From a virus: 23,395 bases of DNA. The translations under genes and the position numbers were made by a program. This document shows, one piece after another, positions 1-15,991 of the stretch (the stretch's first letter is position 1; each line of letters begins with the position of its first letter). Below the pieces are notes generated by a model. It was not told the DNA's origin, did not search any database, and saw only the letters and a list, made by a program, of their open reading frames with translations. The stretch is from IMG/VR virus record IMGVR_UViG_3300009455_000016, positions 1-23,395 of that record. The stretch is one strand, 5' to 3'.

Positions 1-40
1 CGTACTGCCGTACTGCCGTACTGCCGTACTGCCGTACTGC
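1..40. repeat. Five perfect tandem copies of an 8-bp unit
   Basis: The unit CGTACTGC is repeated five times without a mismatch and fills the first 40 bases, so the array may continue outside the window. It lies beyond the last gene of the lysis cassette in a non-coding stretch. No coding frame is claimed across it. It could be an iteron-like or packaging-related array, the edge of a terminal region, or an assembly artefact at a contig end. The sequence alone does not decide. Confidence 0.9.
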
Positions 41-113: not shown

Positions 114-392
114 CTACCTGCCCGGCAGCGCAAACTCCCGCAGAGCACCCTTGTCGGCGTTGCACTGCCCGAGGGCGTCGCGCCAGTCGTCGATGTGCTG
201 GAGCAAGTCGGCGTTGGTCGAGCCGACGAACACCGGCTCAGCGGTCGGCTCGATCAGGCTGACCGGCGGGTCCAGGCGTGGCACTGTCGGCGCTGCGCTG
301 CAACCGGCGAATAACAGCGTCAGGCAGAGAGTGGCTGGCCCAACCAGCGACTTCAGGACGCTTGAGCAGTTCGGCAAGGTCTTGGCGTGCAC
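114..392 (-). CDS. Outer-membrane spanin lipoprotein (Rz1-like)
   Basis: This 92-residue protein is the probable o-spanin, which pairs with the inner-membrane spanin to fuse inner and outer membranes at the end of lysis. It has an N-terminal signal segment ending in a lipobox (LLFAGC, Cys31), followed by a Pro-containing mature part of about 60 residues, as expected for Rz1-type lipoproteins. The start is GTG at 392, chosen because AAGGAG lies 7 bases upstream (400-405). The gene begins inside the i-spanin gene in another frame and runs past its end, which is the overlapping form of the Rz/Rz1 arrangement. Little sequence conservation is expected in this family; the call rests on lipobox, size and position. 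Confidence 0.85.
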   Translation of the reverse strand: MHAKTLPNCSSVLKSLVGPATLCLTLLFAGCSAAPTVPRLDPPVSLIEPTAEPVFVGSTNADLLQHIDDWRDALGQCNADKGALREFALPGR

Positions 393-621
393 GGTCGCGC
401 TCCTTCAATAGCTTGGTCCGATCGGCCTCCCGCTTGCGTAGAGCGGCCTCTGTGCGCCTGATGACGTCTGCCTGCTGCTCCACTACCACCAGCAGCTCTG
501 CGGCCTCCTGGCGGGCCTGCTCGGCCTCTGCAATGGCGTTCCGGTAGACGAGCACCGCAGCCACCGCTGCTGCACACACCGCCGCCAGGGCAGCCAGCTT
601 GACGATCGCGATCCAGTTCAA
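238..621 (-). CDS. Inner-membrane spanin (Rz-like)
   Basis: This 127-residue protein has one N-terminal transmembrane helix (about residues 3-25, Ala/Val rich). A long charged coiled-coil region follows (about 28-90, rich in Glu, Arg, Lys and Ala), then a C-terminal segment with a WASHSLPD motif. This is the usual plan of an i-spanin, anchored in the inner membrane and reaching across the periplasm to the o-spanin lipoprotein. The start is TTG at 621: GGAGG lies 7 bases upstream and the TTG overlaps the preceding gene's stop as TTGA. A longer reading of the frame back to 762 would run through the previous gene and has no membrane-protein logic. The o-spanin gene is embedded in its 3' half. 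Confidence 0.85.
   Translation of the reverse strand: MNWIAIVKLAALAAVCAAAVAAVLVYRNAIAEAEQARQEAAELLVVVEQQADVIRRTEAALRKREADRTKLLKERDRARQDLAELLKRPEVAGWASHSLPDAVIRRLQRSADSATPGPAGQPDRADR
400..405 (-). promoter_or_regulatory. Ribosome binding site for the outer spanin
   Basis: AAGGAG on the minus strand lies 7 bases before the GTG at 392. It sits inside the inner spanin gene and is the reason for accepting a GTG start there. Confidence 0.75.
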
Positions 622-839
622 GTTCCGGCCTCCACTTTGCGTTGGGCAACGTTCCCGGCGATGTAGGCGCCGACGGTGCCTAGGACGACCGTGGCGTATA
701 CCTCTCCGCTGACCTTGGACATGACCACCAGGACCGTGGTCACAAGCAGCGTGGCACAGCACAGCAGGTAGCGCCGCCCGCCGACATACTCGAAGTTGAA
801 GGCACGGCGGCTGGGCTTGGCCTTAGCGGCGGCGGTCAT
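618..839 (-). CDS. Small two-helix membrane protein, holin candidate
   Basis: The 73-residue product has a basic N-terminus and two hydrophobic stretches (about residues 24-43 and 46-62), the second containing GAYIAGNVAQ, then a short basic/acidic tail. Size, topology and position directly before the spanins fit a class II holin or a related small phage membrane protein. The start is ATG at 839, overlapping the end of the Cache gene by 17 bases; no strong ribosome binding site is seen, so it may be translated by coupling. Other membrane proteins in the cassette compete for the holin role, so the function is inferred from context only. Confidence 0.6.
   Translation of the reverse strand: MTAAAKAKPSRRAFNFEYVGGRRYLLCCATLLVTTVLVVMSKVSGEVYATVVLGTVGAYIAGNVAQRKVEAGT
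629..633 (-). promoter_or_regulatory. Ribosome binding site deciding the inner spanin start
   Basis: GGAGG on the minus strand, 7 bases upstream of the TTG at 621 and inside the end of the preceding gene. It supports a TTG start over the longer frame. Confidence 0.75.
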
Positions 840-1626
840 AGATCGATGGCACCAGAATGAGAATGAGTCCCAGCAGGATCAGGACGTCTTGGAACAGGTG
901 ACGCGCCGTCCACGCACGCACGACAGCGGCTGCGTCAACCCGGCCGCGCACGACGAACTGGTGTCCGACCATGCGTACGAGCGTGTCGGTAGCCAGGCTG
1001 CCGACGCCGTCCGGACTGCAGGAGACCACCTGCTCTCCGCTCGAGTGCGCTATCGACAGCCCGACGCCCGGCGAGAGCGCTGCCGCGCACAGCAGCTCCA
1101 GGGTCGCCACATCCATTGCAGTGACCACGATGCCGTCGAAGTTCCCGTCCGCGTCTTCGATACGCGCCACGTAGGCAAAACTGTTGCGCCCCGTGTTGCG
1201 CCCCAAGTATGGCCCGAACCACGCCGTCTGAGTACCGCTCGCGGCGGCCTTGAAATACGGGCGGTCGGCGACGTTGAGCGCCGGCGCAGTCTCGCTGAAC
1301 GACACCGCACGTTGGTCTCCGTTGGCGTCGAACATGAGCACGTGACGGATGGGCTCCTGCGCTGCAGCGTGCAGGACGTCGTACACGAACTGGCTGCTCC
1401 ATCCGTGCCACCGGCCGCTCGCCGCCGTCGCCACGGCCTCGGTTGCCGAACGCGCCTGCGTGAACGTGATCCTGAACATCATCTCGGCTGCGCCAGCGCG
1501 CTGCTCGACAGTGTCAGCCGTATGGCGAAACTCCAGCGCCAGGTCAACGGCAATGCCCACAATCCAGATGAGCGCCCCGACGGTGACGGCCAGGACTCGA
1601 GCAACGTGGCTCAGCTCTCTGTGCAT
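823..1626 (-). CDS. Membrane-anchored Cache-type sensor domain protein without output domain
   Basis: The 267-residue product has one transmembrane helix at about residues 11-31, an extracytoplasmic region of about 200 residues, a second helix at about 243-260 and a tail of only a few residues (YDRRR). The middle region reads like a double-Cache ligand-binding domain of bacterial chemoreceptors and diguanylate cyclases: FDANGD at 99-104, ADRPYF at 120-125, GPYLGRNTGR at 138-147 and DADGNFDGIVVTAMD at 158-172. No HAMP, GGDEF, kinase or methyl-accepting domain follows. The start ATG at 1626 has AAGG-type pairing upstream and overlaps the previous stop by 16 bases; a start at 1698 would lie well inside the previous gene. 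It sits between single-helix membrane genes and the spanins. Function is unknown; a lysis-timing or host-signalling role is inference. Confidence 0.75.
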   Translation of the reverse strand: MHRELSHVARVLAVTVGALIWIVGIAVDLALEFRHTADTVEQRAGAAEMMFRITFTQARSATEAVATAASGRWHGWSSQFVYDVLHAAAQEPIRHVLMFDANGDQRAVSFSETAPALNVADRPYFKAAASGTQTAWFGPYLGRNTGRNSFAYVARIEDADGNFDGIVVTAMDVATLELLCAAALSPGVGLSIAHSSGEQVVSCSPDGVGSLATDTLVRMVGHQFVVRGRVDAAAVVRAWTARHLFQDVLILLGLILILVPSIYDRRR

Positions 1627-2018
1627 GACCGTCCCGCCTTGATTTTGTGGTCCACGACGCTCATCCACGGCTGCCACACAACGTAGGTATCCACGCACAC
1701 AGTAACGACCACGTCGCGCGGCAGCATGATCTCGCGCGAGATGACGCTGTCACCCTGCGCTATCGTGCCCCACGGGTCAAATGACCTCAGCGTCTCGCCG
1801 TCACGGAAGATGATGTCGCGCTCGAACAGGACGCGCACCGGCTCGCTCGATTGAATGTGCAAGGTGTGCACGAGCTGCTTGACGGCATACCGCGTATCTA
1901 CGACCACGTCAGAAGACTTGATCGTGAATGGCACATCGATGCTGATCAACGATCGCACCAGCACGACGATGAGAAAGGCAAACAGCAGCCCGATGAGGAC
2001 CGGTATCAGGCGAGCCAC
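1611..2018 (-). CDS. Single-helix membrane protein of unknown function in the lysis cassette
   Basis: The frame encodes a strong N-terminal hydrophobic helix (LIPVLIGLLFAFLIVVLV) followed by about 110 mostly soluble residues with a strand-like Val/Ile pattern, probably extracytoplasmic. I do not recognise the soluble part. The start is uncertain. GTG at 2018 gives 135 residues and a 13-base overlap with the previous gene; GTG at 2030 is also possible. An ATG at 2117 would add about 33 residues that look like a shadow of the upstream gene. It overlaps the Cache gene by 16 bases, so the two are probably translated together. It could be an antiholin or a partner of the Cache protein, but neither is shown. 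Confidence 0.6.
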   Translation of the reverse strand: MARLIPVLIGLLFAFLIVVLVRSLISIDVPFTIKSSDVVVDTRYAVKQLVHTLHIQSSEPVRVLFERDIIFRDGETLRSFDPWGTIAQGDSVISREIMLPRDVVVTVCVDTYVVWQPWMSVVDHKIKAGRSCTES

Positions 2019-2278
2019 GAGAGCAGCCACTTCACGAGTGGTTTGGCGAATGCTATCAGCGACGCCGTAGCTGACGTGATCGCGACTGTCATGACCTTGC
2101 CCTGGATGTCTTCCCATCTCCTGGCCTTCTGCTCACGTGACTTGTGGTCGCTGCGATGCGCGTCATAGGCATCTGCCCCGTCACCAATCGAGCGACTGAT
2201 GGCGTGCTGCAGAGCGTTCAGACGGTTCTCTACATCATGCAAGCGCTCATCGATGCGCACGGCACGCACGTCGCGCAT
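2006..2278 (-). CDS. Small coiled-coil protein with C-terminal membrane helix, holin-like
   Basis: This 90-residue protein starts with a charged helical region containing a heptad-like stretch (ERLHDVENRLNALQHAI) and a His/Arg-rich middle. It ends in one hydrophobic helix (about residues 63-90, VAITSATASLIAFAKPLVKW). The plan resembles XhlA-type or other tail-anchored holin-associated proteins. The ATG at 2278 overlaps the end of the endolysin gene by 32 bases and has GAGG 9 bases upstream. Being next to the endolysin supports a lysis role, but the family assignment is tentative. Confidence 0.6.
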   Translation of the reverse strand: MRDVRAVRIDERLHDVENRLNALQHAISRSIGDGADAYDAHRSDHKSREQKARRWEDIQGKVMTVAITSATASLIAFAKPLVKWLLSWLA

Positions 2279-2933
2279 GGCGCCACGCCTCGAAGCGGTG
2301 CTCTTTGCCTATCGGAGAACAATGCCTTGATCCGCAGCTCACGAGCGCACTGATGATGTGGAAGGCGTTCGGATCATGCTGCGTTGCGTCGGCCAGACTG
2401 TTCAGCCGCTCACGCACCCAGAATCCGATGGCGCTGCCCACTGCATGCTCCGGCTCGAGCAGTAGGTCGGGACGCGACACGACGTCGGCGCCGCTCCAAG
2501 AGCGATACCAGGCGTAGTTGTCCTTACCCGTCAACTGCTTCAGTCCCCGGCCGATGTACTTCCATCCATCGCCACTCTCGGGACTGCCGTTGCCCATTCG
2601 GTTCGCGTACGTGTTGTTGGCTATTTTGACTGGATCTCTAGCGATCGACATCGCCAGCTGGTTCGGAGCGCCTCCAGCGCGTCCGGTGATCGAATATCTC
2701 TTCGGCCATGTGTTGGCGAGGCCAGCAGCCGAGTAGTTCAGGTTCTCTTTGATCGTGCGCAGGTAGTTCGACTCGACCGCCACCTGCGCCAGCCACGCAG
2801 AGCGCCGGTATGGCGTGTCGATATGGTGCGCCGCCCAGCCCTGCGCGATCCAGGGCGCGTAGCGCTCGATGTCTTGCCGAGCGGCCTGCGGGATGGCCTG
2901 ATCGATCAGCTCGATGAGCTCGGCGCTGTCCAT
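2247..2933 (-). CDS. Endolysin, glycoside hydrolase family 19 (chitinase-like lysozyme)
   Basis: The 228-residue product should cleave the glycan strands of peptidoglycan at lysis. It matches the phage GH19 plan: AQVAVESNY with candidate catalytic Glu54, KENLNYSAAGL with second Glu63 nine residues on, then YANRMGNGSP, YIGRGLKQLTG and a late EPEHAVGSAIGFW segment. No signal peptide or membrane segment is seen, so release through a holin is expected. The start ATG at 2933 begins 2 bases after the preceding stop. No clear ribosome binding site is visible, suggesting coupling. The open frame extends further upstream to 3575, but that part is a shadow of the preceding gene. The last 40 residues are Cys/His/Arg-rich and less typical of the family. 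Confidence 0.9.
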   Translation of the reverse strand: MDSAELIELIDQAIPQAARQDIERYAPWIAQGWAAHHIDTPYRRSAWLAQVAVESNYLRTIKENLNYSAAGLANTWPKRYSITGRAGGAPNQLAMSIARDPVKIANNTYANRMGNGSPESGDGWKYIGRGLKQLTGKDNYAWYRSWSGADVVSRPDLLLEPEHAVGSAIGFWVRERLNSLADATQHDPNAFHIISALVSCGSRHCSPIGKEHRFEAWRHARRACRAHR

Positions 2934-2935
2934 CG

Positions 2936-3529
2936 TCAGGAGACGGTGATGCAGCCGGTGAACAGGTTGATGTACTCGCCGCAAGACCAAAGCGGGATCT
3001 CGACGCGCGAGGTGCCGATAGCCGTTGGCGTGCCCGACAAGCGAACCACGCCTGCGTCCAGGGTGACGTTCAGCCAATCCGGTCCGATGACGGTGCCAAG
3101 CCCGAACGGCGGCGTGCCGGAGAGCACGAACTGATGCCAGTAGGGCACGTTGAGCGCCGCAGCCGGCGCTTGCGCCCCCGAGACAATGGAGGCCTTGCGG
3201 CAGTCGGCCGGGCAGAACTGGTGCTGCTCGATCATGTCCTCGATGGTTTGGTAGGTGATCGAGAACTGCAGGCACGAGCCGATGGGGAAGAACTGCTTGT
3301 GCGTCCCATCCATGCCGCGGTCGAGGACGACTACGCCGTGGCTGCACCGCACACGCACGATCTCGAACCCGCCCGGGCACGTCAGCGTCATGTACGTGTA
3401 GTCGCCGTTCCCCAGCACGGCGCAGATCCTGGAGGACGCATCGAACCTGATCTGCGGCGTGGAGTGATTCGGCTCGAGCGCGGCAGTCAGGTTGGTCAGG
3501 AAGTTCTGCAGCCCTCGTGCGGTGTACAT
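2936..3529 (-). CDS. Cys-rich structural protein with putative Ig-like domain
   Basis: The 197-residue product carries 8 cysteines. Its C-terminal half (about residues 125-185) contains GVVRLSGTPTAIGTSRVEI, the type of signature seen in the He_PIG putative immunoglobulin-like domain. The N-terminal half is not recognised. The ATG at 3529 has AAAGGA upstream and follows the previous stop by 12 bases. Ig-like domains are common on phage virion surfaces and adhesins, so an external accessory or tail role is plausible. Its place between the giant ejection protein and the endolysin fits a late structural gene. Confidence 0.65.
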   Translation of the reverse strand: MYTARGLQNFLTNLTAALEPNHSTPQIRFDASSRICAVLGNGDYTYMTLTCPGGFEIVRVRCSHGVVVLDRGMDGTHKQFFPIGSCLQFSITYQTIEDMIEQHQFCPADCRKASIVSGAQAPAAALNVPYWHQFVLSGTPPFGLGTVIGPDWLNVTLDAGVVRLSGTPTAIGTSRVEIPLWSCGEYINLFTGCITVS

Positions 3530-3541
3530 AACCTGGTTCCT

Positions 3542-3988
3542 TTAGCAATCGGCAGAGCAAGATGGGGGCGGGCACTGGACCTGCGACACGCAGTCATCGC
3601 CGCCGATGGAGAGCCTGTCCTCAAGGTGGAACTGCAAGTGTCCGACGAACTCGTTGCAGATGAACAGCTCTCCTGTCCAGCGTCCAGGCTCAGCCTTCAG
3701 AAGCTTGTCGTCCCACATGAAGCAAACGTTGCCGGTGCGCGCGTCGGCCTCGACGGCGCGATACCTGATGCCTCGGTTCGGCACGCGACTGTAGACCTTG
3801 CGCGTCGTCGTGACGCCACACCCCCAATCGACCGGCTCTTGTTCGCACACCAGCGCGCCCAATCCGCAGCGACGCATGATGATGCTGACGTCCTCGTGCC
3901 CGATCAGCTCAGAGTCGCCGCACAATTCGCGGCGCAGTCCAATGCAGGTCTTGATAGTGCGCGGCGTGATGCGAATGATCCGATCCAT
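3542..3988 (-). CDS. Very Cys-rich small structural protein, unknown function
   Basis: This 148-residue protein contains 11 cysteines by my count, four of them in the last 20 residues (the end reads QCPPPSCSADC). No domain was recognised. It starts at ATG 3988, which overlaps the stop of the giant gene as TGATG and has GAGGA upstream; a longer start at 4009 would lie inside the giant gene. The Cys density matches the neighbouring 197-residue protein and the outer head/tail proteins, hinting at a virion surface role with disulfides. That is inference. Confidence 0.65.
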   Translation of the reverse strand: MDRIIRITPRTIKTCIGLRRELCGDSELIGHEDVSIIMRRCGLGALVCEQEPVDWGCGVTTTRKVYSRVPNRGIRYRAVEADARTGNVCFMWDDKLLKAEPGRWTGELFICNEFVGHLQFHLEDRLSIGGDDCVSQVQCPPPSCSADC

Positions 3989-6900
3989 CAGATTTCCTCT
4001 TCGTCCCACTCCAGTGCGTCACGTAGGAAGGCAATCATCTGGGCCTTGCGCTCATCGGAGATGGCTCCCAATTCTTCTCGGATCTCATTGATGTCGGATG
4101 AGCCCCTCTGCGCGGACCGCAGTAACTCATTATATCGCTTAGTCAAGTCGTTTATTCTTTTCTGTGAAACGCGCAGCGCCTCCAGCCGTTCCAGCTTCTC
4201 GGGGTTGTCCTCGCGCCACTCCTCCAGCCGGTCTTCGGCCTTCGCGAGGCTTTCCTCGCGCCTGTACCGCATGGCCTTGGTCAATTCTTCGTGGTACTTG
4301 GATTCGAGGTAGCGGGACATGCCGCCGATCAGGCGATCGCCACCGACCAGGCGCAGCAGCGTGCTGCCCGGCATTCTGTCGATGGCGTCGAGCTCGCGCC
4401 CTTCCAGCTCTTTCGACGAATCCGTTATGGACTTCAGGACGTATCCCAGCGGCCCCCAAGCCGTACCCTCAACCAGCGTCTTCCACTGCTCTGGGTAGGC
4501 GTCCCAGCCAGTGGACTCGCGCATCGCGGCCGCCATCCGTTTGTACGCGTCGGGGGTGGTGATCTTGCCTTGCTCGCTACGGAACTTGCTCTGATCGGGG
4601 TAGTAGGCGGTCAGCTTCCCGCCGAACGCGTTCGTGTCGGTAGCCAAGTCCACGATCGGGCGGAACACCGTCGGGGTGAACATCTTCGTAAAGAACAGCG
4701 CTGGCGCCGCGCTGACCGTCACCTCGCTGGGCGGGATCGGGGAGATCGTCTTGAAGAACTGCGCCGCCTGCTGGGCGACGGCTTCTTGCGCACCGTAGCG
4801 TCCGGACATCCAGCGCGCGCTGTTCACGACGCTGGACCACGCGAGTTGCGGCAGGCCGAAGCCTACGGGCACCTTGACCGGCTGGTCGTTGCCAAGGATG
4901 AACAGCGGCACGTTACGCTCGATCTCGAACGCGCCCCTCTTGTCCAGCGCGCTGATGCCCTCTTCGCCGTCTTCCTCGTCCCGCGGCGCCAGCACCTCGG
5001 CCAATCCGTAGAGCAGGCCGGCCACCATCAGCATGATGGACGCATCGGTAACTCCGCGCTTCGTGTTGAGCTGGCGGATCAGGTTCCCGCCCGATTGCAT
5101 GGCCGGGTTGAAGAACGCGTAGAGGTGACGCAGCCAAGCAGTCTTGGCCCCTTGGTTGCCAAAGTTCATGAGGTCCAGCGTCTGGAATGCGGCCGTCTTT
5201 TCCTCTACGCCGAGGTCTCGCATCGCCGCGTGGCTAGACAAGGACGAGATCAGCTCGAAGAGCGTGTTGTACGCCTCGACCACCTTGCCGAGACGGCTCG
5301 CCACCAGATGCGGGCCGCTCTTGGCCTTGACCGCCGTGTTGACCGATTTCTGCCCGCGCTTGAGCCGTTCGCCGAACGTCGAGATTCCGCCGTTCATGAC
5401 GAGCTGATTGGCGTAGCGGCCGGCGGCCGTGTTGTTGTCGGCCTGCTTGCCATTGGCCAGCGCCCAGGCGGCGCGCCACAGATCCGGCTTGATCGAATTG
5501 CTCCACGTGCGCGCGAACAGTTTGTTGACGTCGACCGGCTGGCCCGAGGCGTCGATAACTCCGCGCGAGCGGATCAGGACCGACTTCTCCTGCAGGTCGC
5601 GCATCATGTTGATCGGCGCGAACGCCATCGTCCACTGCGTGACCGCGCGCGAGAACAGGCGCAGCGCCCCGTCGAGCATGCTGGGCAGCGTGCCGTCGGA
5701 GAACTCTCGGTTCTTGTTCAGCAGCGCCGGCCCGACCTCTTGGGCATCGCCGGTGAAACGGAAGATCCAGCGCTCGCCTTGCGGGTCCTGCCAGATCACG
5801 TCGGTCGCGAACGGGGACTGGCCCTTCGAGCTGGCTAGACGCTCGATGCCGACGGTGTTCTTGTCGCCGCCGGCCTGGGTCCACACTGCGTTCAGTTTCG
5901 TCTTGAACTCGACGCTGCCGTTGTAGGCTGCCACCCGTCCGGTCCGGTCAACCAGCGCCACCAGCGCGTTATCGGACACCCCGCCAACTCTGCCGCCGCG
6001 CTCGCGCAAGATGTTGGGCGACACGTGCGACCCGAACGCATCGCTGGCCGAGTCGTCCCAGGGCGTGCCGGTGAGGGCGACGTAATGCTTGAACTTCGGG
6101 AAGCCCTGCAGCGCCTTCTTGGAAATCTGTCCGCTCGCGATCGCCTCGGCCTTCATCTTCGCAAAGCCGTCAACGATCATGTTGCCTATGCGCTCGAGGT
6201 CGGCCGCCGCGAACTCGGACTCGAGCTTCTGGCCGATGGCGGTGGCCTCGGCGTCAGACCAGCCGCCCGCCATGGCGCCGCGGTCAGGGTCGTTGTCGTT
6301 CGGGTGCGCGCCGCGCTGGGTCTCGTCGAAGCGACGCAGGTCATGGATGGCGCTCGGGTCGCCTTGCCCGACGCGCCCGACGATCTTCTTGCGCAGTTGC
6401 GCGTTGGCTTCCGGGACGTGGCGCATGGTTGCCCAATACCCAACGACCTGCGCCGCGCGCGCCGCGCCGATCTTGTACTGCTGCGCGAACTTGGCCACCT
6501 CGGCGTGGATGGGATCCAGCACGTCGTTGTTGTAGCGCTGTAGCAGCGCCCGGATCCTGCCGGGGATGAGCTTGAGCGCGCGCCACAGCCCAACGTCTAA
6601 CCCATTGTCCCTGATCCAGTTCCACACTGGCCGCTGCGCGTCCTGCCAATTCTCGATGAATTTGTCCTTCGCCTGCGGCAGCCACTGCGCCGTCGGGTTC
6701 TCACCGGTATCGACGAAGTGTTGAACGGCCGCGCGCGTCTTCATCGGCGCTGCCCGCTGCGCCGGTAGCTTGACCCACGCGGCGTTGGCGATGCTCGACT
6801 CGGCGATGGAGTCGTCGCCGTAGATTGGGTTGATCTGCGACGGGCGGACGCCCAGGGCGCGCTGCGCAGGCGTGGCTTCGTCCGGGTTGTAGTCCCACGC

Positions 6901-9900
6901 ACCGCGCTCGATCTGCTCCTTGATGCTACGCGCCAGGAAGCCGGAGCTTTGCTGCATCAGGGACTCGACGCGCTTCGTCCCGATAGCGTCGGGCAGCTCA
7001 AGGTTGGCTGCGCCGTATGCGGCCAGCAGCATCTCGTCGACGTCCACCCTCGGCACCACGCCAAACAAATCGGCAATCGCGCGCCGCACCCAGCTCGACC
7101 ACTGCGTCAGCGCGCCGACGATGCCTGGCCTGTTCAGCGCCGGTCTCTTGCTTGGCAGGTATCCAGCGACGATCGCCTCCTCGATAAAGTATGGGACCAG
7201 CTCTTCGTCGTACCGCCGGTTGCCGCGTACTGGCTCGCCTGCGCCGAACGCGACCGCATTCACTCGCTGGATGGCCCTATCGTAGACGATGCGCTCCGGC
7301 GACCCCCGCCGCGCGTTGGCCCACTTCTCGATTTGGCGACGGAACTGCTGCAGCCGCTTGCGCCCCAGGATCTGGCCGCCTCGCTTGTGGAATAGCTCGT
7401 GAAAGATGACCGCCTTGATCCGGTCTTTTGGAATGCGCGTCGTCAGCAGCACGATCTGATTGCGCTCCGGCCAGTGGAACGCGAGCGTGCCGCTGCCCAC
7501 CTTGACGGTCCTGCCGTCGGGCATGATGATCAAGGTGTCCTTGTTCGGACCCTCCGACGCAACGATCTGGATGTTGGAGTCCTCGGCCAGCACGACCTTC
7601 GGCAGCAGAGACATGATCGTCTCTTTCGGCCGTCCGAAGATTCGGGCCAGCTCCTGGACGATCTCGGCGCGCGTCGCCTTCTCGCCCGGGATCTGGGCGG
7701 CGGCCGTGTCGTTTACAACGACTTGGGCTTTGGCGCCTGTTGTGGGCTGATCTGCAGCGGCTTTGGTCCTGGCTTGAGGTTTGGCGCGTCCGGTTCCTCT
7801 TTGTAGAGTCGGAGCGCCTGTTCTAGAGCTTGGAGCTGGAGTTGCGGCTCCAAGCCTTGGAGCTGCCGCAGTCTGAGCAGCGGCGATCGATTCGCTGACC
7901 TCTTCGATTGCGCTTCTAATGTCTTGCTCAGCGGTTTCGGGGTTGGCACTGACGGCGGCAACGACGGCGCGAGCTGCTTCATCAACGGCTCCTAATACCG
8001 AGGCTTGTTCGGCCCCGGGCTGAACCTCAGATGCCACTCCAGGTTGGGCGTTCCGGTCGATAGCGCCAGCACGTACTGCGCCTTGAGCTGTTGCCCCTCC
8101 GGTGTCTGCGCCCGCTCCTGCGTCCAGCGCGACGGCGGGGCCGCCATGTCCGGAAATCGCTTGGCGTACAGTGTCTGCAATTGAAGCAGCGTCAAGCTGT
8201 CCAGAGCTTTCGAGTTGTCTGAGTCCATTGAATAGTCTTTCCGCAAAGGCGTATGTCTTGGGCAGACGCGATTTGAGTGTACTTGGGTCTGCGTGATAGT
8301 ACGCAACGATTTGTGCAAAATACTCGGCCGCTTGGTCCCTCGGACTCCCGGAACCAGACATGAGCGGGTAGTGAAAATACAAAGGGGCTTCGGCGCCGCG
8401 CTTGGCGTACCAATCGGCAATCTCCTTGACGTACACGCCGGCAGAAGAGAATTCCGGTGCATTCTGCGAGATGAATGGGGCGTCGCTGCCGGTGCGCAGA
8501 ATGTCGTCCAGCGCATGTCCGAGCTCGTGAGCTGCGGTGTGCTGCTTGCTGTAGCTCCCACTACCAGACGGGCTCATGTCGAGCGCGACCTGCCCCTGCC
8601 AATCGAACATCGAGCTAGAGCAATAGAAGCCCACGTAGCCGTAGCCATGCTGGATCTTCGAGAACCTGGCGCCGAGCGCGCGAATGATGTTGTTGGTGAA
8701 GCCGTTGGGCACCGACGTCACGCTGCGCATGATGGCCAGGAACGCCGGGATTTCGTCCTTCGTGATGGCCTGGCTTCCCTTATACGTCTTGCCGGCGGCG
8801 GCTAGAGCGTACCCCTCGGTATCTCCACCGGGCTGCTTGTCAGGATCTGGCGGTGCTGGAGGCGCGGGCGGCTCGATGCCGGAGTCGGCGGTCGTTGTGT
8901 CCTGGCGCGCCAAGTCGGCCAGCTGGCGCGCGGCGATACTCTGCGCCTCGCCGAACGAGAACTCTCTGCCCTGAAGCTGCTGCTCGCGATAGATGATCGC
9001 GGCCAATTCGTGCAGACGTCCGTCGCCCGGTGACCGTCCTTGCCGAAAGAGGTTGATCAAGCCTTGCGTCAGGTCGGCACGTGCGGTCGCAAGCGTGGGC
9101 TCGTCGGCGGTCAGCAGCTCTTTCGCGCGTGCCGTCGACTCCTCGATTTGCCGCGCCATCCTGATGAGCTGCGCGCGCTCGGAGCGGCGGTAGATCGTGT
9201 TGGCGCGCGCGTCGTAGATGCGCGAGGCCGCGATGTTGGCGATGACCGACAGGGCGTCCGAGAGCTTCAGGGCGCCCAGCTCTTCGGCGGTCGGATAGAC
9301 GTAGTTGCCGCTGTTGTCCTTCGGGAATGCGCTGCGCTCTTGCGCCGCGAACGCGCGGTCGCTCGGAGTTTCGACCAATGACCGCTCGTCCAGGATCTGG
9401 TTGGCGATCGCACGCTCCTCCAGCAAGCGCGCCTCGTTCTCGCCGGTGACTTTGGCGCCGGTGCCGCGCTCGCCCTCGATGTCGAGCAACGCCTGCTCGC
9501 GGTCGCGCACGTAGCTCTCGAGGTCGTTCTCGTCGAGGTCGGCGAGACTGGCCAGCTCCTGCGCTCGCTGCACCTTCTTCGTGAGCGGCGCGGACAGGCT
9601 GGCCTTGGTCGCGTCGTCTAGGCTGCTGGATGCAATCTGATCGAGCCGACGTGCTGCGGCCTCAACTTCGCCCTGGAGGCGTCGCACGGTTGGCGTGGCC
9701 TCGAACTCCATGGCCGATTGCGTCCACGCATCGATTTGCTCCTCGATGGCGACGCCCTGCTCGACGCGTCCCGCCTCGGAGAGATCGGGGTTCTGCCGTA
9801 TCGCATCCAGCGTCGTCTGCAGCGTGCCGATCGCCTTGGCAGCGCGCTGGCGAAACGTCTCGGGTCCGGTAGGCGCCTCCGGGGCCGAGGGAGCGCTCGG

Positions 9901-11331
9901 CTCGGGCTGCGTTGGCGTAGCCTGCGCTTCCTCCGGAGCAGTAGACCCGATCGCGGCGATCGCGCCAGGCCCAGCCCCGGCCAACACCGCCTGCGCTGCC
10001 ACCTCGCCGGTGCCGGCCAGGAGCTGCGTGTCCGGCGCCAGGCGCCGCAGTTGCCGGTTAGCCTCGATCTGCGGCCCGACTTCCTCCGGGATCTCGCCCA
10101 ACGGTTCCGCCGCAAAGCGGCCGAGGCGCGACATCAGTCCGGCCTTGGCGGCCTTGCCGAGCAGTTGCTCCACGCCAAACGCGCCGCCCACACCGCCCGC
10201 AACCATGCCAATCAAGGCGGCGACCTTCGAGCGGTCGAGCGCGATCTGGCGCTTGGCCTCTTCCTCGCCAACCGTCTTGCGCAGCTCGTTGTACTCTGGG
10301 TCGGTGCGCCACTGTTCCTCGGTGGCTTTGCGCATCGTCTCGACGTTGGTCGAGATCGCATCGCCGGCCGTCAGCGCTGAGCCGGCCGCAACAGCCGTGC
10401 CGCGGGCCGCCTTCGTTGCCAACTGAGCGGCAGCGGCAGCCTCGGCAGCGCTGAGCGTTTTGAAGCCCGTTGAGAGCGCGGAGGCAACCCGCCCGGCGGT
10501 GCCGGCCGCCCCAAGAGTTGCCACCATCTGCGGCACGTTCTCGGCGAAGAGGTTGACGATCAGGTCAGGGCGGTCCCATGCCGCGCCGATCGCCGCCCGG
10601 AACTTCCCAAACTCGCCCTCACCAGCGGCCTGGACGCGCTCGGCGGAGACCTTCAGGTCGTCCTTGAGCTTCTGCGAATACTCGTCGCGGAACGCCTTGG
10701 CGCGTGCCTCGGCCAGCTCCGGATTGAGCATATCGCCCAAGATGCTCTGGCCCTCTTGCGTGAACGGCTCGCTCACTCCGACTTGGCGCGCGGTGAAGTT
10801 GACCAACGTGCCGACTTGCCCGGCCAGTGTATTCGCCCCGGACGCGAACGCGTTGACGCGATCCATCAACGCCCCGCCCAGCGTGCGCTCGATCGACTTG
10901 GTCAGCGGGGCGCCCTTGCGGATGGCGGCCCTGAATGCCTCGCGTTCGCCCTTGTCCTCGATGGTGAGCGCGTACTGCTTGACCTGATCGAGCCACGCGC
11001 GCTCGAGCGACTGGCGGCGCTCCGTGGATCCCTGCTTCCACTGCGGAGAATTCTGCAGGTCGGCCCACGTTCCGAGTCCGTCGGGCAGGGCGGCGGCGGT
11101 CGGCGCCTGCTGCGCTGGCTGGACTGGCGCGGTCATGGCGCCCGCAATGGGCACTGGCGTAGGCTGCGAATAGATCAGGTCCGACAGGCTCGGCGCTTGG
11201 GCGGCGGTCGCGGCGGCGACTTCCGCTTTCGTAAGCGCCGGCGTCGTGACCAGGGGTGCTCCAAGCAGGCTCGTGTTCTCATTCTTCTTGTCCTCTCTCT
11301 GGGGCATGAAGCGCTCAAGTTCGCTGGCCAT
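3988..11331 (-). CDS. Giant internal virion/ejection protein with two zinc-peptidase sites and an LPD38-like C-terminus
   Basis: The 2447-residue product has an Ala/Pro-rich N-terminus and helical regions with Gly/Ala hydrophobic stretches (for example about 370-390). A Pro-rich linker at about 815-836 leads to a first zincin domain: HELGH at 935-939, followed by AAEYFAQ with Glu1003 as probable third ligand. The HELGHALDD and QAAEYFAQ spacing recalls the catalytic domain of anthrax lethal factor. After a low-complexity linker (about 1150-1200) comes a second site, HELFH at 1311-1315, with candidate ligand Glu1376/1377. The C-terminal third (from about 1900; FFNPAMQ at 2073-2079; hydrophobic helix about 2098-2116) looks like large polyvalent protein-associated domain LPD38, and the end is a coiled coil. 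I find one cysteine. It abuts the transglycosylase gene, so ejection into the host with the DNA is likely. Internal details are inferred from motifs. Confidence 0.85.
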   Translation of the reverse strand: MASELERFMPQREDKKNENTSLLGAPLVTTPALTKAEVAAATAAQAPSLSDLIYSQPTPVPIAGAMTAPVQPAQQAPTAAALPDGLGTWADLQNSPQWKQGSTERRQSLERAWLDQVKQYALTIEDKGEREAFRAAIRKGAPLTKSIERTLGGALMDRVNAFASGANTLAGQVGTLVNFTARQVGVSEPFTQEGQSILGDMLNPELAEARAKAFRDEYSQKLKDDLKVSAERVQAAGEGEFGKFRAAIGAAWDRPDLIVNLFAENVPQMVATLGAAGTAGRVASALSTGFKTLSAAEAAAAAQLATKAARGTAVAAGSALTAGDAISTNVETMRKATEEQWRTDPEYNELRKTVGEEEAKRQIALDRSKVAALIGMVAGGVGGAFGVEQLLGKAAKAGLMSRLGRFAAEPLGEIPEEVGPQIEANRQLRRLAPDTQLLAGTGEVAAQAVLAGAGPGAIAAIGSTAPEEAQATPTQPEPSAPSAPEAPTGPETFRQRAAKAIGTLQTTLDAIRQNPDLSEAGRVEQGVAIEEQIDAWTQSAMEFEATPTVRRLQGEVEAAARRLDQIASSSLDDATKASLSAPLTKKVQRAQELASLADLDENDLESYVRDREQALLDIEGERGTGAKVTGENEARLLEERAIANQILDERSLVETPSDRAFAAQERSAFPKDNSGNYVYPTAEELGALKLSDALSVIANIAASRIYDARANTIYRRSERAQLIRMARQIEESTARAKELLTADEPTLATARADLTQGLINLFRQGRSPGDGRLHELAAIIYREQQLQGREFSFGEAQSIAARQLADLARQDTTTADSGIEPPAPPAPPDPDKQPGGDTEGYALAAAGKTYKGSQAITKDEIPAFLAIMRSVTSVPNGFTNNIIRALGARFSKIQHGYGYVGFYCSSSMFDWQGQVALDMSPSGSGSYSKQHTAAHELGHALDDILRTGSDAPFISQNAPEFSSAGVYVKEIADWYAKRGAEAPLYFHYPLMSGSGSPRDQAAEYFAQIVAYYHADPSTLKSRLPKTYAFAERLFNGLRQLESSGQLDAASIADTVRQAISGHGGPAVALDAGAGADTGGATAQGAVRAGAIDRNAQPGVASEVQPGAEQASVLGAVDEAARAVVAAVSANPETAEQDIRSAIEEVSESIAAAQTAAAPRLGAATPAPSSRTGAPTLQRGTGRAKPQARTKAAADQPTTGAKAQVVVNDTAAAQIPGEKATRAEIVQELARIFGRPKETIMSLLPKVVLAEDSNIQIVASEGPNKDTLIIMPDGRTVKVGSGTLAFHWPERNQIVLLTTRIPKDRIKAVIFHELFHKRGGQILGRKRLQQFRRQIEKWANARRGSPERIVYDRAIQRVNAVAFGAGEPVRGNRRYDEELVPYFIEEAIVAGYLPSKRPALNRPGIVGALTQWSSWVRRAIADLFGVVPRVDVDEMLLAAYGAANLELPDAIGTKRVESLMQQSSGFLARSIKEQIERGAWDYNPDEATPAQRALGVRPSQINPIYGDDSIAESSIANAAWVKLPAQRAAPMKTRAAVQHFVDTGENPTAQWLPQAKDKFIENWQDAQRPVWNWIRDNGLDVGLWRALKLIPGRIRALLQRYNNDVLDPIHAEVAKFAQQYKIGAARAAQVVGYWATMRHVPEANAQLRKKIVGRVGQGDPSAIHDLRRFDETQRGAHPNDNDPDRGAMAGGWSDAEATAIGQKLESEFAAADLERIGNMIVDGFAKMKAEAIASGQISKKALQGFPKFKHYVALTGTPWDDSASDAFGSHVSPNILRERGGRVGGVSDNALVALVDRTGRVAAYNGSVEFKTKLNAVWTQAGGDKNTVGIERLASSKGQSPFATDVIWQDPQGERWIFRFTGDAQEVGPALLNKNREFSDGTLPSMLDGALRLFSRAVTQWTMAFAPINMMRDLQEKSVLIRSRGVIDASGQPVDVNKLFARTWSNSIKPDLWRAAWALANGKQADNNTAAGRYANQLVMNGGISTFGERLKRGQKSVNTAVKAKSGPHLVASRLGKVVEAYNTLFELISSLSSHAAMRDLGVEEKTAAFQTLDLMNFGNQGAKTAWLRHLYAFFNPAMQSGGNLIRQLNTKRGVTDASIMLMVAGLLYGLAEVLAPRDEEDGEEGISALDKRGAFEIERNVPLFILGNDQPVKVPVGFGLPQLAWSSVVNSARWMSGRYGAQEAVAQQAAQFFKTISPIPPSEVTVSAAPALFFTKMFTPTVFRPIVDLATDTNAFGGKLTAYYPDQSKFRSEQGKITTPDAYKRMAAAMRESTGWDAYPEQWKTLVEGTAWGPLGYVLKSITDSSKELEGRELDAIDRMPGSTLLRLVGGDRLIGGMSRYLESKYHEELTKAMRYRREESLAKAEDRLEEWREDNPEKLERLEALRVSQKRINDLTKRYNELLRSAQRGSSDINEIREELGAISDERKAQMIAFLRDALEWDEEEI

Positions 11332-12132
11332 CTATGCCTCATCGATCATGCGGAGCAAATCCTTGTCATACGCCTTTGGAAAGACGTCTGCAATGCCAGC
11401 AATGGGTCCGAACTTGGCTTTTAGGAATCCGTCCATGGACTTGGGCTTGGCCAGTGCCAGCAAATCTGCGGAGCTGGTAGCTCCGCCCATCTCTGCAGCG
11501 AGGTCCATCTCCTCGGCCGGCGGCTGCGAAGCGTCGAGTGCGGCCTCGATCGTCAGCTTCTCGCCCGTGGGCATGGCGCCCAAGCCGACTTGCGCCACTA
11601 CCTCGCCCGCCGATGCGCCGCCAGTGCGCTGAGCGACGGCGCGGTTGACCGCCTCTTTCGGCAGTTTGGACGTGCCCGGAAAGAACGCCAGCGTCAGGTC
11701 TGCCGGCGCCTGCGTTGAGCCGTAGGCCATGGCCCTGCGCATGACCGACGGCACGTAGTCGAGCGTTTCTTTCGGAGGCGTATACCCCCGAGGGTTCTTC
11801 AACATCTTCTGGACGTTGCCGGGGCCCCAATTGTAGGCGGCCAGCGCGAGGCCGGTGTCGCCGAACTGATCCAGTCGATCCTTGAAGTAGCGCGCCGCGC
11901 CGCCCAGGTTCTCCTCGGGGTCGAAGACGTTCTTGACACCGAGGTCTCGAGCGGTGCCCGGCATGAGCTGACCCAGACCCTTGGCGCCGGCTGCGCTGGT
12001 GGCGCGTGGGTTCCAGCCGGACTCCTGCTCGATCTGTCCCAGGAATACAGGGACCAGATCCTCCGGGATGCCCGCCTCGAGCGCCTTGCGCCGTGCCAGC
12101 GCGACGAGGTCTTGCTTATCCGCGCGGGCCAT
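11332..12132 (-). CDS. Virion-associated lytic transglycosylase (SLT family)
   Basis: The 266-residue product has an N-terminal soluble-lytic-transglycosylase domain: IEQESGWNP with catalytic Glu37, GAKGLGQLMPGTA at 49-61 and ALAAYNWGPGNV at 96-107. The C-terminal 150 residues are acidic and Ala-rich and were not recognised. Such enzymes cut peptidoglycan locally to let the ejection channel pass. There is no signal peptide, and the gene lies among internal virion genes far from the endolysin, which supports a virion role. ATG at 12132 has AGGTGA just upstream. The stop is followed with no gap by the giant gene's ATG. In T7 the transglycosylase domain is fused to the large internal protein gp16; here the two parts are separate genes. 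Confidence 0.92.
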   Translation of the reverse strand: MARADKQDLVALARRKALEAGIPEDLVPVFLGQIEQESGWNPRATSAAGAKGLGQLMPGTARDLGVKNVFDPEENLGGAARYFKDRLDQFGDTGLALAAYNWGPGNVQKMLKNPRGYTPPKETLDYVPSVMRRAMAYGSTQAPADLTLAFFPGTSKLPKEAVNRAVAQRTGGASAGEVVAQVGLGAMPTGEKLTIEAALDASQPPAEEMDLAAEMGGATSSADLLALAKPKSMDGFLKAKFGPIAGIADVFPKAYDKDLLRMIDEA

Positions 12133-14211: not shown

Positions 14212-14646
14212 TCAGCTCACCACCATCATTCGATCTGCGGGGTTGGCGCCGCAAGCGCGGGCCGCGTCCATGAGCGATGGTATCGCCTCGTTGATCTGCA
14301 AGACAATCCGTGTTGCGCCGCGAGCCTTGACGGCGCGGATGCCGTACTGGATGAACTCGGCCAAGTTGACGCCGGGGTCCATGCGCCCGATGGTCGTCAT
14401 CAGGCCCGTGATCACGGCTTTCTCGTCCATGTCGCGTACGATCCACCAGAGCATGCCGGCGACAATCTTGCCGTCCTTGCGCGCCGACACCCCGATCGCC
14501 CGTCCGGAGACAATGGCCGCAGCGAGCGCGTCCAGGTCAGGGTCGTAGACGCGGCCGAGCTTGCCGGGCCCGAGCTTCCAGTGCTCGGCGTAGGCATCAA
14601 CGCACTCTTTCAGTGTAGCCGCGCCCTCGACGCCGAATACGATCAT
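14212..14646 (-). CDS. GNAT-fold-like virion-associated protein, second copy
   Basis: This 144-residue protein resembles the GNAT-like internal protein family of podoviruses (T7 gp13 type). It is a paralogue of the 155-residue protein encoded at 15524-15991: both have an LxEC-x-AYA N-terminal helix and ARKDGKIVA (55-63 here), followed by a hydrophobic strand and an alternating helix/strand C-terminal half. Whether it binds acetyl-CoA is not evident, because a clear Q/RxxGxG/A loop is missing. ATG at 14646 overlaps the preceding stop as ATGA. A structural role in virion assembly is more likely than catalysis, by analogy with gp13; that is inference. Confidence 0.7.
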   Translation of the reverse strand: MIVFGVEGAATLKECVDAYAEHWKLGPGKLGRVYDPDLDALAAAIVSGRAIGVSARKDGKIVAGMLWWIVRDMDEKAVITGLMTTIGRMDPGVNLAEFIQYGIRAVKARGATRIVLQINEAIPSLMDAARACGANPADRMMVVS

Positions 14647-15524
14647 GTCGCGCTACCTCCGAGCGGGCTGAAGTCAGAGCCGCTGAACCCTTGGCCTTCC
14701 AGGCCGACGCCAGCGAACCCCTGCCCTTCGCCGCCGGTGCCGATGTTCGGGGCGGTGTCGGTCGACCCACGGGACCAGTCAGACCCTGACTCGCTCATGT
14801 CTGGCACTTGCCCGGCGGACGGCTGCGGGTTGTAGCCCCACGGGTTGTCGAACGTTGAGTAGTCGGTGCCGCCAATTCCGAACGCCCTGAATGCCGACCC
14901 GATCAATCGCTGACCGCCGTCCGACGTGAGATAGCCGGCCAACTGCGCCCACCCCTGCGCCGCTTCGCCGCGTAGCTGCGCCGCTTTCATGGCGAAGGAT
15001 GCCGCAAGCGCCGAGGTCTCCATAGCCTGCGACAGCAGGTTGCGTCCAAGCGCGAGCTGCCGATAGCGGTTGGAGATGCGCAGCTGGTTCCACTCCTGCT
15101 GCTTCGCGCGCTCGTAGCGCCACGCGTAGTGGTAGCCGTCGGTGAGCGCCTGCGCCTCGGTCGCGGCAAGGTAGCGCAGCGTCTGGCAATAGGCCCCGGT
15201 GTTATAGATGTCCTGCTGCATGCGCAGTTGTTCCCGGCTCGCCGACGCGCTGCGCAGCACCTCGAGACGCACCCTTCCGGCGACTAGAGACGGACGGAAG
15301 TCGTAGTAGGGGAACGCGCAGAGTGCCTGGATGGCTGAGGCGTCGCAGGTGGCGTAGTAGGCCAGCCAGTGTTCGTGCAGCTCGCGCTGCACCTTGGTCT
15401 GCAACTCGGCCGCCTCGCGCGTCGTAGCTGCCGATTGCTTGCCAGCGGAAGCGGTAACGGCGGCGCTGGCCAAGCTGCCGGCAGCGCCAATCGCGGCAAC
15501 GGTCAACGCGCCACCGAATGGCAT
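14643..15524 (-). CDS. Internal virion protein, first (upstream) copy, gp14-like
   Basis: The 293-residue product begins with a Gly/Ala hydrophobic stretch (about residues 4-27), as seen in T7 gp14-like ejection proteins. A helical body follows: TKVQRELHEHW at 43-53, RNLLSQA from 161 and QLAGYLTSDGGQR. The C-terminal tail is Gly/Ser-rich with repeated EGQGF-type motifs. It is paralogous to the product of 13461-14210. The start is ATG at 15524, overlapping the preceding stop as TAATG; the frame stays open to 15923, but that extension is a shadow of the GNAT-like gene. A membrane-interacting role in the ejected channel is inferred from the N-terminus and the gene order. Confidence 0.78.
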   Translation of the reverse strand: MPFGGALTVAAIGAAGSLASAAVTASAGKQSAATTREAAELQTKVQRELHEHWLAYYATCDASAIQALCAFPYYDFRPSLVAGRVRLEVLRSASASREQLRMQQDIYNTGAYCQTLRYLAATEAQALTDGYHYAWRYERAKQQEWNQLRISNRYRQLALGRNLLSQAMETSALAASFAMKAAQLRGEAAQGWAQLAGYLTSDGGQRLIGSAFRAFGIGGTDYSTFDNPWGYNPQPSAGQVPDMSESGSDWSRGSTDTAPNIGTGGEGQGFAGVGLEGQGFSGSDFSPLGGSAT

Positions 15525-15991
15525 TACGGAATCTCCATGAGGTAATCGCCCAGCTTGGCGCCGATGGCCTCCATGCGTGCGCGCAGCGACGGCACGCCAG
15601 ACCAAGCCAGCATCGCCACCGACGTGGCGCCTTGGTCCTTCATGGCTTGCGCGCCGAACCGCAGGAACGCGGTCGTGTCGCATGCGTCGGGCGTGGACTT
15701 GTAGATGAGCGTCATCGTCGCGAGCAGCCGTGAAAGCGACTCGAGATCGCGGTTGAACGTCCAGTGCTGCAGCGCTACGATCTTGCCGTCCTTGCGCGCC
15801 GTGACGAACTGCCGCTGCCTGGCAACCACCGCGCCGATCAGCGATTCGAGGTGCGGCTCGAACGGTACGTGCGCTTGCCCGCGGTAGCCGCGGTCCCATG
15901 CGGCTGCGTAGGCGGCCATGCACTCGTTCAGCTTGATGGCGAACTCGCGCTCATCGCGCCACGTCTCGACGGCGAATACCGGCTCAGACAT
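15524..15991 (-). CDS. GNAT-fold-like virion-associated protein, first copy
   Basis: The 155-residue product has the strand/helix pattern of a GNAT acyltransferase fold and carries ARKDGKIVA at 65-73, identical to the second copy encoded at 14212-14646. It lacks an obvious acetyl-CoA binding loop. In T7-like phages a GNAT-like protein (gp13) precedes the gp14 ejection protein, and the same order is seen here. ATG at 15991 overlaps the end of the propeller-protein gene by 8 bases. The stop overlaps the next start as TAATG, indicating coupled translation of the two-gene module. Confidence 0.72.
   Translation of the reverse strand: MSEPVFAVETWRDEREFAIKLNECMAAYAAAWDRGYRGQAHVPFEPHLESLIGAVVARQRQFVTARKDGKIVALQHWTFNRDLESLSRLLATMTLIYKSTPDACDTTAFLRFGAQAMKDQGATSVAMLAWSGVPSLRARMEAIGAKLGDYLMEIP

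Follow-up and report, generated by a model that had tools for sequence, protein, structure and literature searches.

A Cache sensor domain without an output domain in a phage lysis cassette

The Lysis Cassette

The window, by which we mean the whole stretch of 23,395 nucleotides analyzed here, carries a lysis cassette with the gene order GH19 endolysin, p90, p168, Cache, p73, Rz, and Rz1. The genes considered all lie on the minus strand:

2247..2933, minus strand: GH19-type endolysin (phrog_181, E = 7e-55)
2006..2278, minus strand: p90, hydrophilic in its N-terminal part and with a hydrophobic segment at the C-terminal end; candidate holin or partner of a holin
1611..2117, minus strand: p168, with one N-terminal transmembrane (TM) helix and a periplasmic domain of ~105 residues; start codon uncertain
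823..1626, minus strand: Cache protein gene, 267 aa, ATG to TGA; TM1, stalk, Cache, TM2
618..839, minus strand: p73, small, with two hydrophobic segments; candidate holin
238..621, minus strand: Rz-like inner-membrane spanin (phrog_89, E = 1.4e-9; phrog_214)
114..392, minus strand: Rz1-like outer-membrane lipoprotein spanin, LysC (PF23793, E = 7e-15)

Upstream, the start of the Cache ORF shares 16 nt with p168, and downstream its stop shares 17 nt with the start of p73; the pairs GH19/p90, p73/Rz, and Rz/Rz1 overlap as well. The endolysin has no signal peptide evident from its sequence, and the cassette should therefore need a holin. The cassette encodes several small TM proteins, and topology alone makes p168, p90, and p73 holin candidates: p168 resembles the class III holin T, and the hydrophobic segment of p90 was read from the sequence and falls under the threshold of our hydrophobicity scan. 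Our searches found no homologues of p90, p168, or p73, and p168 had no match in 399 genomes of the Zoogloea order. Taken with the overlaps, the family matches of the endolysin and the two spanins support the view that a sensor lacking an output domain lies inside a genuine lysis operon, as a sequence-only reading of this DNA had proposed.

The Cache Protein

The ORF encodes TM1 (residues ~8–31), a long stalk helix, a periplasmic Cache domain (residues ~70–230), and TM2 (residues ~243–263), with no output domain. Its hydrophobic segments span about residues 5–34 and 240–266, the C-terminus IYDRRR comes directly after TM2, and neither HisKA nor HATPase was found in the ORF by Pfam. The hydrophobic helices at both termini and the charged tail YDRRR after TM2 predict that the Cache domain is likely outside and both protein ends inside. 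Codon statistics favor this frame, at 0.285 bits/codon compared with −0.39 and −0.56 for its two alternatives and ~0 for the opposite strand, and led us to reject a chance or wrong-frame ORF. As the gene overlaps both neighbors and its codon usage matches that of the phage, a chimeric contig is unlikely.

The Pfam profile PF02743 (dCache_1) matched residues 88–180 with E = 1.3e-8; the score of 35.1 bits is below the Pfam gathering score of 45 bits, and accepted kinase relatives of the protein likewise score near or under that cut-off. A phmmer search recovered 3lif (E = 1.4e-7) and KinD (E = 2e-4), and an HMM built without the phage row from 25 aligned bacterial Cache domains, collected by genome scan, found the phage ORF at E = 1.2e-26. 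With an alignment of bacterial homologues as input, AlphaFold2 gave a model with a mean pLDDT of 87.7 and a pTM of 0.76, for which Foldseek ranked 3lif at the top (E = 2e-12). Aligned with VIA-align, the model matched 3lif with a Z of 20.2 (2.9 Å over 207 residues) and KinD with a Z of 19.6–20.2, the highest being to 4jgq. This agreement with the Cache family is partly expected because homologues were in the input alignment; the phmmer and Pfam matches are independent of the model. A single-sequence model (pLDDT 46) and the fold search made with it were meaningless and were discarded.

Altogether, the protein is predicted with high confidence to adopt a Cache fold. The profile search and structure prediction thus bear out the sequence-only reading, which had described two membrane helices, a Cache domain, and a stop just after the second helix. 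It had also called the domain a double Cache, and this needs qualification: the membrane-distal half is clear, while the membrane-proximal half is short and poorly modeled at residues 210–221 (pLDDT <50), the total length being as in KinD.

The phage Arg122 aligns with Arg131 of KinD, a position at which the mutant KinD chain differs from the wild type; according to the PDB entry titles, 4jgq and 4jgr are R131A and 4jgp is the pyruvate complex. KinD is counted among the carboxylic-acid dCache domains (PMC8694187). One candidate ligand-site residue is therefore retained in the phage domain. Arginine is nearly invariant at this position in 26 aligned Cache domains and so points to a functional pocket generally rather than to pyruvate specifically. 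Compared by relative position only, without alignment, with the PctA amino-acid motif (Y121, R126, W128, Y129, and D173), the phage protein has R122 and D172, and L117, Y124, and F125 at the other positions, a partial fit.

Relatives and Origin

Scanning 399 genomes of the Zoogloea order for the Cache domain gave matches at 1e-8 in eight, the six best (1e-21 to 1e-24) lying in open frames of 690–769 aa. One of these, from a Zoogloea MAG, has the architecture Cache-HisKA-HATPase-REC and the other five Cache-HisKA-HATPase. The sensor halves of these histidine kinases are the closest relatives of the phage protein, at 32–35% identity, and in a tree of 33 Cache domains the phage protein joined the six kinases with support of 99/97, branching outside them. 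The kinases have the TM helix, stalk, and Cache domain in common with the phage protein, and the MAG protein also shares the motifs FDA[ND]G[DQ]QR.VSF, DRPY, and GPY[LV]GRNTGR, but they run on into HisKA and HATPase where the phage protein ends after TM2. KinD (4jgo/4jgp) and rpHK1S-Z16 (3lif) have the same fold as the phage domain over ~200 residues (Z ~20), and the phage domain keeps the DR motif and the equivalent of Arg131; the KinD and rpHK1S-Z16 domains, however, are parts of full signaling enzymes.

Judged from these sequences, the natural reading is that the gene would be the captured sensor half of a histidine kinase whose kinase part was not kept. Likewise, the capture would naturally be read as old enough for about two-thirds of the residues to change and for the codon usage to become phage-like. 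With only one phage sequence, we infer both the direction and the time of the transfer.

Distribution in Other Phages

Relatives of this phage were identified via the capsid protein. One sister phage (G001) has the same neighborhood, with the giant protein, p148, and p197 followed by lysis genes, here for a GH24 lysozyme, a protein of 141 aa in which three stretches are hydrophobic, Rz, and Rz1. Its cassette keeps Rz and Rz1 in the same position but has the GH24 lysozyme and the 141-aa TM protein and lacks Cache, p168, and p90, from which the Cache gene appears to travel with an alternative lysis module. In a second sister phage (G002), we found no Cache gene and none of the lysis families looked for, and four further relatives (L002, L003, L063, and L066) are fragments ending short of the cassette. 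The genes preceding the cassette in the window (2936–3529 and 3542–3988, minus strand; the first with a weak tail-fibre match) are conserved in position in the two sister phages, irrespective of what follows.

The sequence-only reading had suggested looking for homologues beside GH19 endolysin or spanin genes, and our HMM survey of such genes in viruses found no Cache domain at any of 59 loci with flanks of up to 5 kb. No Cache homologue was found in the viral contig, phage, and sister-phage sets, and no Cache-bearing lysis cassette among 50,697 phage records. Wider viral surveys for Cache gave nothing, using short peptide patterns that diverged members could escape; PADLOC defence families gave nothing relevant. 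In the literature, searched with subscription journals mostly outside coverage, no Cache protein was described in a lysis cassette. Given the GH19 survey and the absence from the sister phages, no contig other than this one has so far shown the arrangement. The earlier reading had weighed a one-off insertion of a gene whose homologues lie only outside lysis cassettes: no homologue turned up in other cassettes and the relatives known so far are kinases encoded on chromosomes, but with overlaps on both sides and phage codon usage the gene is no raw insertion.

A likely precedent for the protein type is gp214 of Bacillus phage G (L111:7885-8925, minus strand), a 346-aa Cache-like membrane protein with no output domain, a weak Pfam match to dCache_1 (E = 1.6e-4), and two hydrophobic segments read from the sequence. 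Like the protein studied here, it is a phage-encoded membrane protein with a Cache-like domain and no output, but no lysis gene is named among its neighbors and the kinship extends to fold and the weak Pfam match only. Phage proteins of this type thus probably exist already, and the novelty here is the place, inside a lysis cassette. The gp214 gene adjoins a coiled-coil-like gene, gp215.

Possible Function

From the domain, its fold, the missing output, and the operon position, we infer a ligand, a partner, and an effect on lysis. A kinase sensor half, taken up by the phage and retained without its kinase, would be anchored in the inner membrane and expose the Cache domain to the periplasm, as the predicted topology has it; the gene overlaps suggest that it would be translated together with the endolysin, the putative holins, and the spanins. 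The ligand, a small molecule of the periplasm and perhaps a carboxylate, would bind or leave and thereby shift the two TM helices; these, or the periplasmic face, could then restrain or release a holin partner from the same operon, p168 or p73. Our leading, tentative proposal is that the Cache protein acts as an antiholin-like regulator setting lysis timing, a function read from the anatomy and position of one instance. We rate it so mainly because the gene lies inside the cassette, not beside it, and should be translated along with the other genes there. Of the two roles suggested by the sequence-only reading, a sensor that times lysis through a holin and a decoy of host receptors, the first is possible and is favored by position and co-expression; its fuller version, in which a periplasmic metabolite gates the lysis clock via the captured sensor domain as a ligand-gated antiholin, we regard as rather doubtful.

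In T4, holin and antiholin control acts through periplasmic domains of membrane-anchored proteins, as we propose here, with lysis inhibition mediated by RI and T (PMC11413866). The two systems differ in that the T4 signal is superinfection and the one proposed here a small periplasmic molecule, and T has no sequence similarity to the Cache protein in the comparison made.

Morons adjoining lysis genes are common, and the Cache gene might be such accessory cargo, using late expression from the lysis operon, for instance for superinfection exclusion or a change of the envelope, with no role in lysis. The single instance, its absence from the sister cassette, and the example of gp214, without a lysis gene named beside it, fit this; the location inside the cassette, where a gene overlaps it at either end, fits it poorly, and we consider it unlikely. 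Somewhat less credible is a decoy or dominant-negative subunit that, late in infection, mutes a two-component response of the host, either by heterodimerizing with one of the host's Cache histidine kinases or by binding the ligand of that kinase. TM1, stalk, and Cache, the parts by which such receptors dimerise, are retained, and the closest relatives are a specific Cache kinase family grouping with the phage protein at 99/97, but the identity to any known kinase is only 32–35% and the late operon position leaves host signaling little time to matter. Least plausible is that the Cache protein and p168 together form a large-domain holin comparable to T4 T, the Cache domain being an oligomerisation module that senses nothing: p168 does have class III topology and Foldseek matched the Cache model weakly to T-type holins in BFVD (A0A2I6PF73, A0A3B8DX45, and A0A023W573; E 0.013–0.068), but at an rmsd of 10–18, and an architecture of two TM helices flanking a large periplasmic domain differs from that of known holins. 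Homology to T holins was left unsupported by hhalign (probability 0.2% against nine T holins), and Pfam gave no match to PF11031 (Phage_holin_T) in the Cache protein.

Phages adjust lysis timing to superinfection. If the antiholin-like role is true, a lysis regulator derived from a bacterial metabolite sensor would tie lysis to the chemistry of the host or the environment, and a Cache-based regulator could be put to use as a lysis switch under ligand control.

Other Genes in the Window

The giant protein (2,447 aa; 3988–11331, minus strand) contains an LPD38 domain of polyvalent proteins (E = 1.3e-19) and two HExxH motifs (HELGH and HELFH), and the sister phages have counterparts of the HExxH type; its gene adjoins a transglycosylase gene at 11332–12132. 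Between 13461 and 15991 on the minus strand, a two-gene module, consisting of a small protein that looks acetyltransferase-like by eye and has no Pfam match and a p249-like protein, is tandem-duplicated, both copies being matched in sister phages L064/L068:

14212-14646 and 13461-14210, minus strand: small protein and p249-like protein, one copy
15524-15991 and 14643-15527, minus strand: small protein and p249-like protein, other copy

Just past Rz1, at the contig end (window 1–40), lie five perfect copies of CGTACTGC, a repeat that is perhaps what stopped the assembly.
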